From Flavitalea plasmicola (lineage in GTDB: Bacteria; Bacteroidota; Bacteroidia; Chitinophagales; Chitinophagaceae), in the NCBI RefSeq assembly GCF_030546645.1, contig NZ_JAUOTO010000007.1:496001-560000 (forward strand): a DNA stretch of 64,000 nt. The letters run 5' to 3'. Shown here one piece after another: positions 13,709-22,301 of this stretch (its first letter is position 1; the number at the start of each line of letters is the position of its first letter). Under the pieces are notes generated by a model, which ran no database searches, was not told the DNA's origin, and saw only the letters and a list, made by a program, of their open reading frames with translations. The position numbers and the translations under genes were made by a program.

Positions 13709-14179
13709 CTATTCTTTAAAGACCTGTACATTCCGGCTAAAACTTTCGTCGAGGGAAATAAAGGTCTCCGTACGTTCGATACCCTTGATCTTCTGCAGCT
13801 CATCATGCAGCACATAACGCAGCTGGTTGATATCCTTACAGGCGATCTCCGCAAACATGCTGTAATTCCCCGTCGTGTAGTTCAACCGCACGATCTCCGG
13901 TATCTTTTGCAGTTCCCGGGCAACACTGTCATATAAAGAACTCTTTTCCAGGTAGATCCCAATAAAGGCGATGACATCGTACCCCAATTGTTTCAGATCT
14001 ACATGTAATTTTGTACCTTTAACGACAGCCAGCTCCTGTAATTTCTTGATCCGTACATGGATTGTACCTCCCGAAACGAATAGTTTTTTGCCTAATTCCG
14101 CATAGGAGATTTCCGCATTGTCCATCATTTCATGGATTATCTGCAAATCCAATTTGTCGAGATTCAATTTTACCGCCAT
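13709..14179 (-). CDS. Lrp/AsnC-family transcriptional regulator
   Basis: A 156-residue regulator with an N-terminal helix-turn-helix (LDKLDLQIIHEMMDNAEISYAELGKKLFVSGGTIHVRIKKL) and a C-terminal RAM (ligand-binding) domain containing VDLKQLGYDVIAFIGI and TGNYSMFAEIACKDINQL. Family members form octamers and respond to amino acids. The 147-bp gap upstream to the tRNA-like locus is very AT-rich and should contain its promoter, but no clear -7 box was found. It is probably co-transcribed with the small lipoprotein. Confidence 0.92.
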   Translation of the reverse strand: MAVKLNLDKLDLQIIHEMMDNAEISYAELGKKLFVSGGTIHVRIKKLQELAVVKGTKLHVDLKQLGYDVIAFIGIYLEKSSLYDSVARELQKIPEIVRLNYTTGNYSMFAEIACKDINQLRYVLHDELQKIKGIERTETFISLDESFSRNVQVFKE

Positions 14180-14326
14180 CTTGAATAGTGTTTTTAAATT
14201 TTCTCTACAGCAGAATGCAAATATTTGAATAATTTTGAAAACACAAAAATTTTTATTGAAAAAACACGAAAAATTGGCCTATTTCTTTAATTTTACATCA
14301 AAGCAGCTCTTTTTAGAAGCCGATAC

Positions 14327-14500
14327 TGTGGGATGATGGAATCTTTGGCAGACATGCCCTCTTGTCTCGGGGGTGGAGAATCGGGATAAACATAGTGTAA
14401 TGCCGGATCTGGCTCACGCCGGGTTCGACTGGGGTTGACCACCACAGATTGCGCTACAGCTAACCGCTCCGTGGAGGTTCGAGTCCTCCTCCTACAGCCA
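14327..14500 (+). ncRNA. tRNA-like RNA with 99-nt variable domain, copy 1
   Basis: The ends form a tRNA body. The acceptor stem is TGTGGGA (14327-14333) with TCCTACA (14490-14496), then discriminator G and an encoded CCA. U8-G9 are followed by a Leu/Ser-like D-arm (ATG, a loop ending in TTGGCAGA, CAT). The anticodon-like arm is CCCTC / GGGGG with loop TTGTCTC (GUC at 34-36, U33 present, but U37 instead of a purine). The T-arm is GGAGG-TTCGAGT-CCTCC. Between anticodon arm and T-arm lie 99 nt (14374-14472) instead of 4-24. They close with GGAG / CTCC and contain a 9-bp helix, 14393-14401 with 14448-14456, plus two hairpins. An aspartate identity is not claimed. Confidence 0.72.
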
Positions 14501-14502
14501 CC

Positions 14503-14520
14503 GGACCCTCTGCAGGGTCC
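14503..14520 (+). other. Perfect hairpin between the two tRNA-like RNAs
   Basis: GGACCCT-CTGC-AGGGTCC is a perfect 7-bp stem with a 4-nt loop, placed 2 nt after the encoded CCA of copy 1 and 13 nt before copy 2. There is no U run, so it is more likely a processing signal or spacer structure than a terminator. Confidence 0.5.
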
Positions 14521-14533
14521 ACCAATATCACAA

Positions 14534-14702
14534 TGTGGAGTGATGAAACTTGGCAGACATGCCCTCTTGTCTCGGGGGTGGGGATCCAGGATAAACATAG
14601 TGTAATGCCGGGTCCGGCTTCCACCGGATTCGACTGGGGTTGACCACCACAGATTGCGCTACGGCTAACTGCCCCGTGGAGGTTCGAATCCTCCCTCTAC
14701 AG
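14534..14702 (+). ncRNA. tRNA-like RNA with 99-nt variable domain, copy 2
   Basis: A diverged second copy. The acceptor stem is TGTGGAG (14534-14540) with CTCTACA (14695-14701): against copy 1, positions 6-7 changed from GA to AG while the partner changed from TC to CT, a double compensatory change. The variable-domain closing stem is GGGG / CCCC where copy 1 has GGAG / CTCC. An internal hairpin is GCCG-CGGC where copy 1 has GCCG-TGGC. D-arm (ATG/CAT), anticodon-like arm and T-arm (GGAGG-TTCGAAT-CCTCC) are kept, and the insert is again exactly 99 nt. The 3' end reads G-CA, so CCA is not encoded. A terminator follows. Confidence 0.72.
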
Positions 14703-14710
14703 CAAACTTT

Positions 14711-14828
14711 AATCGATAGCCCCGCCTGAAAAGGCGGGGATTTTTCATTCCGGGAGCTGGGTGAGCTCGCTCACCAAAGCGGACGGGATGAAAAATCTCC
14801 AGGCGCGCCAGCGCCTGGGCTATCGATT
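14711..14828. repeat. Cloverleaf-like palindromic element
   Basis: Nested inverted repeats fold the whole segment. A perfect outer stem joins AATCGATAGCCC (14711-14722) and GGGCTATCGATT (14817-14828). Hairpin 1 is 14720-14739. A long arm pairs 14739-14752 with 14784-14797 (one mismatch) and is capped by GGTGAGC-TC-GCTCACC (14760-14775). Hairpin 2 is CCAGGCGC-GCCA-GCGCCTGG (14799-14818). Such multi-arm palindromes resemble REP or MITE-type elements. No coding capacity is seen. The rest of the gap to the sigma gene (14829-15023) is AT-rich with no other feature recognised. Confidence 0.7.
14720..14745 (+). terminator. Rho-independent terminator of the tRNA-like transcript
   Basis: CCCCGCC (14720-14726) pairs with GGCGGGG (14733-14739) around the loop TGAAAA and is followed by ATTTTT. 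It lies 17 nt after the end of copy 2, which shows the tRNA-like pair is read on the plus strand. It is also hairpin 1 of the palindromic element. Confidence 0.75.
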
Positions 14829-21578: not shown

Positions 21579-22301
21579 ATGGGCCAAAAAAAGCTGATCC
21601 GTTTCGCTGCTATCCTCACCTTCCCCAACGTCCTCCAATACCCTGAAGGCATGGCGGGAAAATGGGCGGAATTCTTCAAGAATGATCACCCCCTTACCCT
21701 GGAGCTGGCCTGCGGTAAAGGAGAATACACCGTCGGACTGGCCAGGATGTACCCACAAAGGAATTTTCTGGGCGTAGACCTGAAAGGCAATCGCATCTAC
21801 ATCGGCGCAAAGACAAGCCTGCGGGAAAACCTTACCAACGCCGCCTTTCTCCGTACCCAGATCGATCGCCTTCCCACCTATTTCCAGCCCGGTGAAGTGT
21901 CCGAGATCTGGCTCACCTTCCCGGACCCCCAGCTGCGAAAATCCAAAGCCCGGAAAAGACTGACCCATCCCAAGTTCCTCCGCCTCTATCAACAGATCCT
22001 CGTCCCCGGTGGGCGCATTCACCTGAAAACAGATTCACCCGTCCTCTATAATTTCACCCGCCTCGTCATCGATATGTACGGTCTCACCCTTCTCGAAAGC
22101 TCGGATAATATCCACGCCGGCCCTATCAAAGAAGAACTGAAAATAAAGACCCATTACGAAAGCCTCGACATCGCGCAAAGCAATCGCGTACATTACCTTC
22201 TCTTCACACTTCCCGCAACGCCCCTGCCAGACCTGGATGAAGCATTGCAGGAAAAGGTCCGCGAAATGGAGCCCGATGCACCCCAAATCGCCGGACAATG
22301 A
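21579..22301 (+). CDS. trmB: tRNA (guanine-N7-)-methyltransferase
   Basis: It methylates G46 in the variable loop of tRNAs using S-adenosylmethionine. The 240-residue product carries motif I LELACGKGEYTVGLA, the acidic motif II loop FLGVDLKGNRI, and the TrmB signature EIWLTFPDPQLRKSKARKRL followed by HPKFLRLYQQILVPGGRIHLKTD. The first residues MGQKKLIRFAAILTFPN also fit the family. It overlaps the next gene by 4 bp (ATGA). A -7 box lies immediately before the start codon. Confidence 0.95.
   Translation: MGQKKLIRFAAILTFPNVLQYPEGMAGKWAEFFKNDHPLTLELACGKGEYTVGLARMYPQRNFLGVDLKGNRIYIGAKTSLRENLTNAAFLRTQIDRLPTYFQPGEVSEIWLTFPDPQLRKSKARKRLTHPKFLRLYQQILVPGGRIHLKTDSPVLYNFTRLVIDMYGLTLLESSDNIHAGPIKEELKIKTHYESLDIAQSNRVHYLLFTLPATPLPDLDEALQEKVREMEPDAPQIAGQ

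Follow-up and report, generated by a model that had tools for sequence, protein, structure and literature searches.

The stretch of DNA analyzed here, 64,000 nucleotides from the 8.7-Mb genome of Flavitalea plasmicola (hereafter the window), carries two tandem tRNA-like RNA genes that are 87% identical to each other, next to a divergently oriented gene for an AsnC/Lrp-family regulator. A gene for TrmB, the tRNA (guanosine-46-N7) methyltransferase with its target site in the variable loop, lies 7 kb beyond the RNAs. The features are as follows.

13709..14179, minus strand: gene for the AsnC/Lrp-family regulator (Pfam PF01037 and PF13404), divergent from the RNAs and tied to them by adjacency and co-occurrence
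14288..14314, plus strand: putative promoter -7 element (TAATTTTA, cf. TAnnTTTG) with a boxA-like GCTCTTT leader, proposed from by-eye comparison across loci; the names TAnnTTTG -7 box and boxA are our presumptive assignments
14327..14498, plus strand: tRNA-like RNA copy 1, body 14327-14497 (G73 at 14497), C74 at 14498; from sequence, copy alignment and covariation
14357..14373, plus strand: anticodon-like arm of copy 1, loop TTGTCTC at 14362-14368, positions 34-36 GTC, position 38 C; from sequence and loop statistics
14375..14470, plus strand: expanded variable arm of copy 1, 96 nt, with base GGAG/CTCC, internal loop GATAAAC/GCTAAC, a 9-bp helix and distal hairpins; from covariation
14473..14489, plus strand: T arm of copy 1, GGAGG-TTCGAGT-CCTCC; from sequence and covarying pairs
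14534..14703, plus strand: tRNA-like RNA copy 2, body 14534-14702 (G73 at 14702), C74 at 14703; from sequence, copy alignment and covariation
14562..14578, plus strand: anticodon-like arm of copy 2, loop TTGTCTC at 14567-14573; from sequence and loop statistics
14580..14675, plus strand: expanded variable arm of copy 2, 96 nt, with base GGGG/CCCC; from covariation
14678..14694, plus strand: T arm of copy 2, GGAGG-TTCGAAT-CCTCC; from sequence and covarying pairs
14720..14739, plus strand: intrinsic-terminator-like hairpin with T tail, 3' of copy 2
21579-22301: TrmB gene

Both copies contain the elements that the initial annotation had listed for them: a 7-bp acceptor stem (TGTGGGA/TCCTACA in copy 1 vs. 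TGTGGAG/CTCTACA in copy 2), U8, a D arm (3-bp stem ATG/CAT with a Leu-like D loop), an anticodon-like arm with a 5-bp stem and a 7-base loop (CCCTC-TTGTCTC-GGGGG), and the T loops TTCGAGT and TTCGAAT. The double swap in the acceptor stem and the change at the base of the variable arm from GGAG/CTCC to GGGG/CCCC, both taken at that stage as signs of a maintained structure, are also seen in the copy alignment; the inserted domain, then given as 99 nt, is counted here as a 96-nt variable arm. ARAGORN calls no tRNA within the window, and nothing there attains the gathering threshold of any Rfam 15 family, the weak matches belonging to unrelated families only. An open reading frame lies antisense to the RNA (14293-14598, minus strand), as at many other loci; such frames probably just reflect conservation of the RNA, and they may be taken for protein genes in automated annotation.

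Two tandem RNAs of this kind are real features of the locus, and it is covariation among homologues that carries most weight. In a structure-blind MAFFT alignment of 32 sequences from the genus, 97.5% of the proposed pairs are standard pairs, compared with 42.7 and 44.7% when partners are slid by one column; 15 pairs changed on both sides, the proposed structure exceeded the slid versions on all five measures used, and none of 500 shuffles reached the observed value on four of these measures (35 of 500 did so on the fifth). Among 72 diverse sequences (71 distinct), double changes occur in 37 of 51 pairs, in an alignment that was fitted to the model and so leans towards the proposed structure. 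Folding of the single copies gave no significant signal (z scores of −0.82 and −0.95), and the minimum-energy fold of a single sequence differs from the cloverleaf; the structure thus rests on covariation. By this measure the acceptor, D, anticodon and T arms of an elongator-type cloverleaf are all present, and the acceptor and T-arm pairings, whose loss in homologues would have spoken against the original proposal, are conserved. The sequences define a conserved RNA family with a predicted class II (tRNA-Leu-like) cloverleaf body: among 125 distinct host sequences the RNA is 109–197 nt long, with a variable arm of 35–120 nt (median 86), and the core of this arm, ATAAAC...GCTAAC, is largely retained in 71 sequences.

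Rfam matches in the host genome number 49 for tRNA and, above the cut-off, one for tmRNA, the latter outside the window; the tRNAs include an ordinary tRNA-Asp(GUC) and five tRNA-Leu. Decoding therefore does not require the RNA, and no tRNA needs to be restored by splicing, which together with the absence of a known Rfam family answers two objections that the initial annotation had raised against itself. In the ordinary host tRNAs C74 follows the discriminator in 48 of 48 genes and CCA is encoded in 5 (by eye); the G73-C74 ending of the RNA is, in sequence, the host's own N73-C74 tRNA format. Its D arm is nearest to that of the host tRNA-Leu(UAG), and its anticodon-like loop is nearest to that of tRNA-Asp, with 5 of 7 bases shared.

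Homologues are widespread in the lineage. A DNA search finds matches in 29 of 33 genomes of the window's genus, including all 18 near-complete ones (at least 90% complete, at most 5% contaminated). Across the family, model R1 at E <= 0.001 matches 213 of 294 genomes, from 73 of 92 genera; removal of six weak cases (G043, G051, G061, G127, G165 and G232), for which model R2 gave only tRNA-Leu-sized or doubtful matches or none, leaves 207/294. The class total is 130 of 396 genomes at E <= 0.001 with tRNA-Leu-sized matches included, and 73 of 396 (13 of them from the window's family) at E <= 1.1e-15 among the matches listed; R1 and R2 matches of about 82–89 nt were read by their length as ordinary tRNA-Leu and left out of counts. 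One short sequence (G451; 109 nt, E 1.6e-11) belongs to the 125 host sequences and falls outside these 73. A sample of the phylum yielded the RNA in 42 of 392 genomes (R2, E <= 1e-18). Three of these 42 (G917, G923 and G963) come from outside the class; two of them carry the RNA as three tandem copies, the third as a single copy. A pattern scan gave 42 named loci, each with an R2 match and none with a tRNA called by ARAGORN, from carriers that include Chitinophaga deserti (L209, with a match of 144 nt), Cyclobacterium, Lunatimonas, Reichenbachiella, Parachryseolinea, Cesiribacter, Saprospiraceae and Cryomorphaceae; the arm portion of the pattern was shifted by one base, and this set understates the spread and favours some genera. 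The window query found no match in plasmid records. As a separate observation, one locus (L215; G232:C20:2399-2524) holds a gene that resembles tRNA-Leu, has a long insertion near the anticodon or variable region and matches R2 weakly; it may contain an intron or be a degenerate relative.

The loop of the RNA was examined in the 125 distinct host sequences, which were collected without any anticodon-loop pattern and are not independent events, since many come from close relatives and 32 from one genus. Position 34 is G in 120, U in 3 and C in 2; U35 and C36 are present in all 125; position 38 is C in 123 and A in 2; and G73, followed by an invariant C74, is found in 125 of 125. The exceptions at position 34 (U34 in G576, G633 and G451; C34 in G471 and G607) make Glu-type anticodons, those at position 38 are G540 and G451, and in total six of the 125 sequences lack one or two of G34, U35, C36, C38 and G73. 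The remaining loop bases behave differently: position 33 is U in 110, C in 7 and G in 8, and position 37 is U in 112, C in 8 and G in 5, never A. Elongator tRNAs have U33, a purine at position 37 and a variable region of at most about 24 nt, and the control set of 48 ordinary tRNAs from the host genome, which omits one tRNA-Leu(CAA) that ARAGORN failed to call, has U33 in 46 and C33 in 2, with A37 in 37, G37 in 10 and U37 in 1. The RNA departs from this format on both counts, its family having no fixed U33 or purine 37 and its variable arm measuring 96 nt in the window and 35–120 nt in hosts; copies from the three loci outside the class (L211-L213) even have A33. The discriminator of tRNA-Leu is A73, and the RNA has G73 throughout.

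According to the available part of one source (PMC9976931), G34, U35, C36, C38 and G73 are strong determinants for AspRS and G2-C71 is a minor bacterial aspartate determinant. All five strong determinants are maintained as a set in the RNA (120, 125, 125, 123 and 125 of 125 sequences, respectively), and G2-C71 is invariant in 71 sequences; the G1-C72 pair of tRNA-Asp is missing, since pair 1-72 is U-A in 71 of 71 sequences and A-U in some viral copies. The loop thus keeps the bases that AspRS reads and loses those that decoding requires: positions 34-36, 38 and 73 are conserved, and positions 33 and 37 are not decoding-like. These departures extend across the homologues the doubt about normal aspartate decoding that was first voiced for the two copies, and the RNA seems unsuited to codon reading.

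In bacteria the RNA tends to accompany one particular regulator protein, of the AsnC/Lrp type. Of the 95 loci that the searches returned, 84 have the regulator gene on the 5' side of the RNA in divergent orientation: 28/28 in the genus, 29/30 in other genera of the family and 27/37 in other families. In a second sample of 45 loci (the 42 named pattern matches plus L211-L213, the loci from another class) it adjoins the RNA in 17, including all three of L211-L213; four of the 28 negative loci have fewer than 600 bases upstream, and the Cyclobacterium, Lunatimonas, Saprospiraceae and Chitinophaga deserti loci are among those without it. Presence in the genome follows the RNA more closely: an orthologue occurs in 40 of 40 RNA-bearing vs. 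3 of 41 RNA-lacking genomes tested, counts that come from related genomes and are not independent trials. Within the family (E <= 1e-20) the figures are 20/20 and 2/21, one of the two (G067) being a contig-edge case; within the class they are 20/20 and 1/20 (G352) at a score of at least 155 bits, a cut chosen after a gap was seen (the next score is 135), and three RNA-lacking class genomes hold relatives of 125–135 bits. The RNA-lacking sample comprised 20 of 81 genomes of the family plus G162, and 20 of the class, drawn from the matches listed, and a recheck of RNA absence with looser filters covered those of the family. A search with filters off found no RNA beside the regulator in G352, G430, G375, G337 or G059. 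Since the orthologue follows the RNA also where the two lie on separate contigs (10/10 such class genomes, and all 11 tested when family and class are taken together), the link does not depend on adjacency. Unlinked regulators are interspersed with linked ones in a tree of 50 proteins, in which many forks have weak support and which also encloses one group of paralogs on long branches. As a separate matter, in a genome that lacks the RNA (G430, L361), an ordinary tRNA-Asn(GUU) at 1383-1457 adjoins an AsnC-type relative.

Other neighbours are less general. TrmB, assigned by an NCBIfam equivalog, is the first gene downstream of the RNA on the same strand in 26 of 58 loci of the family (10/28 in the genus and 16/30 in its other genera; L012, L088 and L092 are examples), and in none of the 37 loci of other families or the 45 of the second sample, in a scan whose flank reached at most about 1.7 kb and was shorter at some loci. 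In the genus, a transport permease-like frame is repeatedly found upstream of AsnC. We read both neighbours as family synteny, and the TrmB adjacency may be a sign that the arm is modified. Among the genes around the RNA we recognized no dedicated acceptor enzyme. A paralog of AspRS was also considered and rejected: none was found among 29 genomes, each of which gave three class IIb matches, presumably the Asp, Asn and Lys enzymes, and partial matches in the two genomes with four (G037 and G072) were read as split genes. A 12-residue insertion in AspRS (NPxIENAxxYLxHP-like) is characteristic of certain family lineages (L340-L359) and is present in 6 of 6 RNA-bearing members among 20 aligned AspRS sequences; it fails as an RNA-linked trait, being found also in the RNA-lacking G057, G063 and G162 and absent from three RNA-bearing genomes of other families.

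Some viruses of environmental origin carry the RNA as well. A scan of viral sequences gave 92 stretches, and among the 80 matches listed R2 confirms 79 (E <= 1e-15), the sole unconfirmed one being cut by a contig end. The loops recovered by this first scan are not independent evidence, because its pattern fixed GTCNC; two scans with loop-free patterns found a GTCTC loop in 32 of 32 places examined by eye, several of them near-copies. In large viral contigs the RNA lies within tRNA arrays: one (L261) has 25 tRNAs and a tmRNA that starts 25 nt after the RNA, a second (L278) likewise places it beside a tmRNA, and an ordinary tRNA-Asp is also present in L254, L261, L274 and L294. In 13 of 16 array-less phage records, which were hand-picked and may all be fragments, no Rfam tRNA match was found at E <= 0.001; the tRNA-free records include contigs of 108, 65, 62 and 54 kb. 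Because phage records carry the RNA with no detected tRNA, a role in infection is suggested. Among the named phage records of INPHARED the window query found none, and four viral copies used as queries found only LR756504.1, a 636-kb uncultured phage with one RNA inside a tRNA cluster. No AsnC relative was recognizable in any of 102 viral loci examined. The hosts of most RNA-bearing viruses are unproven, as the Bacteroidota-type TAnnTTTG box lies upstream of only 7 of 63 viral copies. Viral copies also extend the range of forms: L272 combines A37 with G33, and some forms of 92–95 nt in total approach the variable-region limit of elongator tRNAs. ARAGORN names three short viral forms tRNA-Asp. 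Two further observations concern viral loci: four copies (L262, L274, L281 and L297) have an apparent extra D-loop hairpin by eye, and two phage tmRNAs beside or near the RNA (L261 5143-5517; L297 9574-9957) are predicted to encode long tags (AVELSTMTFEDAMAFVGADYAVAA and AEELSSFTFEDAMAFVGADYAVAA).

These results lead us to propose, with a probability of roughly 0.4, that the RNA is processed as a tRNA, probably charged with aspartate, excluded from decoding and linked in function to the AsnC-type regulator. It would be matured like a tRNA, through 5' trimming and completion of CCA, and the housekeeping AspRS would recognize it through G34-U35-C36, C38 and G73; the unfixed U33 and the U, C or G at position 37 would exclude it from normal decoding. 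The regulator would control the RNA gene, or act jointly with the RNA, in response to the amino-acid state of the cell, and the charged or uncharged RNA would act off the decoding path as a signal or an aspartate donor. Phages would carry their own copy because the function benefits infection. Several findings speak against this proposal: the exceptions at positions 34 and 38, A37 in L272, a pair 1-72 that is not G1-C72, and the lack of an AspRS paralog, of an RNA-linked AspRS insertion and of a recognized dedicated acceptor enzyme. Against the link to AsnC, the regulator adjoins the RNA in only 17 of the 45 loci of the second sample, three RNA-lacking genomes keep it, three more keep a 125–135-bit relative, and the 102 viral loci showed none. 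The restriction of the TrmB adjacency to the family and the three short viral forms that ARAGORN names tRNA-Asp also weigh against the proposal. A further-reaching version, in which AspRS charges the RNA, the AsnC-type regulator senses or governs the pool of charged RNA and phage copies steer the host circuit, some perhaps as the sole tRNA-like gene of the phage, appears doubtful.

The strongest competitor, possible though less probable than the aspartate-charged, non-decoding RNA, is a regulatory RNA or decoy that is never charged, whose tRNA body would confer stability and processing and whose GUCUC loop and arm core would bind AspRS, AsnC, a nuclease or another RNA. It would account for the invariance of U35-C36 in the 125 sequences while positions 34 and 38 vary, for the strong conservation of the internal loop ATAAAC/CTAAC of the variable arm in 71 sequences, and for co-occurrence with AsnC even when the two are unlinked, and the available part of a report on a pseudo-tRNA within a regulatory RNA provides a precedent (PMC3399842). 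The strict G73, C74, T loop and G2-C71, along with the aspartate identity bases, exceed what a docking loop would need. Pairing of the loop GUCU with a D-loop AGAC is not supported: 14 of 71 sequences have C in place of the A, and U35 is unchanged.

It is unlikely that the RNA is a specialized tRNA that decodes Asp codons in a special context or with a dedicated factor, for which the arm would be a handle as in tRNA-Sec. The Asp anticodon with G73, the viral copies in tRNA arrays and beside tmRNA, the three short viral forms called tRNA-Asp and the one viral A37 could all be understood in this way; set against them are a base 33 that can be any of the four nucleotides, a base 37 that is U, C or G in every one of the 125 host sequences, and an ordinary tRNA-Asp that coexists with the RNA in the host and in at least four array-bearing viral contigs. 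Acceptance of serine is less likely again. SerRS recognizes a long arm with G73 in tRNA-Ser and tRNA-Sec, according to the available text of a review (PMC7609411), and would disregard the anticodon; the class II body with G73 has both of these tRNA-Ser features. This would leave the conserved GUC and C38 unexplained, and the D arm and arm junction resemble those of tRNA-Leu.

We consider a tmRNA-like or ribosome-rescue function very improbable: the adjacent tmRNA in two viral contigs (L261 and L278) is outweighed by the ordinary tmRNA of the genome, the anticodon arm and the lack of an RF00023 match in the window. An artefact, a pseudogene or an intron-bearing ordinary tRNA is scarcely credible, despite the non-significant folding of single sequences, given covariation over many genera and the presence of the RNA in 18/18 near-complete genomes of the genus. 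Membership in the ordinary tRNAs, with or without an intron, and in tmRNA was rejected on the strength of the ARAGORN and Rfam negatives and of the ordinary tRNAs and tmRNA encoded elsewhere in the genome.

Comparison with known systems places the RNA between several of them. It shares with class II tRNA-Leu the cloverleaf, U8, the D-loop GG, the TTCGAnT loop, the N73-C74 end and, by eye, U44 and a "GU" around the variable arm, and differs in its 35–120-nt arm in hosts, G73, Asp-type loop and dispensability for decoding. It shares G34-U35-C36, C38, G73 and G2-C71 with tRNA-Asp(GUC), whose host loop is CUGUCAC compared to [C/U]NGUC[U/C/G]C in nearly all copies of the RNA, and differs in its class II body, its long arm, a base 37 that is not A in any of 125 sequences and a U1-A72 pair (A-U in some viral copies) where bacterial tRNA-Asp has G1-C72. 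Like tmRNA it has a tRNA-like end domain, and some phages carry both, but it has an anticodon arm and no Rfam tmRNA match. In the accessible part of its description (PMC3399842), Bacillus cereus tRNA-Other is likewise a tRNA-like RNA with no function in translation, a property we infer for the present RNA; tRNA-Other lies beside a pathogenicity island in one strain, responds to iron and is part of larger transcripts, whereas the present RNA is a lineage-wide family with an expanded arm, an AsnC partner and viral copies. A long variable arm and an unusual cloverleaf also recall tRNA-Sec and other non-canonical tRNAs as covered in the available text of PMC7609411; those RNAs decode, and the present RNA has an acceptor stem of 7 bp, a T stem of 5 bp and a far longer arm.

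As judged from its sequence, the RNA is a new class, falling outside elongator tRNA, tRNA-Leu, tRNA-Asp and tmRNA (Rfam model), and its chemistry may still prove to be tRNA-like. The terms "Bacteroid*" and "Chitinophag*" do not appear in the available text of the review of non-canonical tRNAs (PMC7609411), and in that of a survey of 104 motifs (PMC2864571) the Bacteroidetes motifs are named, most with Rfam numbers, and none is tRNA-like. No description of the RNA was found in the literature searched (PMC, with most subscription papers outside), in keeping with the novelty first suggested for it. What positions 33 and 37 indicate agrees with the initial proposal of either an unusual tRNA or a tRNA mimic whose role lies outside decoding. 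A structured RNA that occurs in most searched genomes of a family, in other families and in viral contigs is overlooked by standard tRNA and RNA annotation, and it would represent a new kind among the tRNA-derived RNAs. If charged, it would point to an unrecognized use of aspartyl-tRNA outside decoding; if uncharged, it would be a new regulator of translation or of the amino-acid response.

On ordinary tRNA genes, we also observed a cluster of seven at G000:C16:546157-546868 (Met, His, Lys, Ile-UAU, Ser, Phe and Trp), several of them low-scoring, which looks like an acquired tRNA set.
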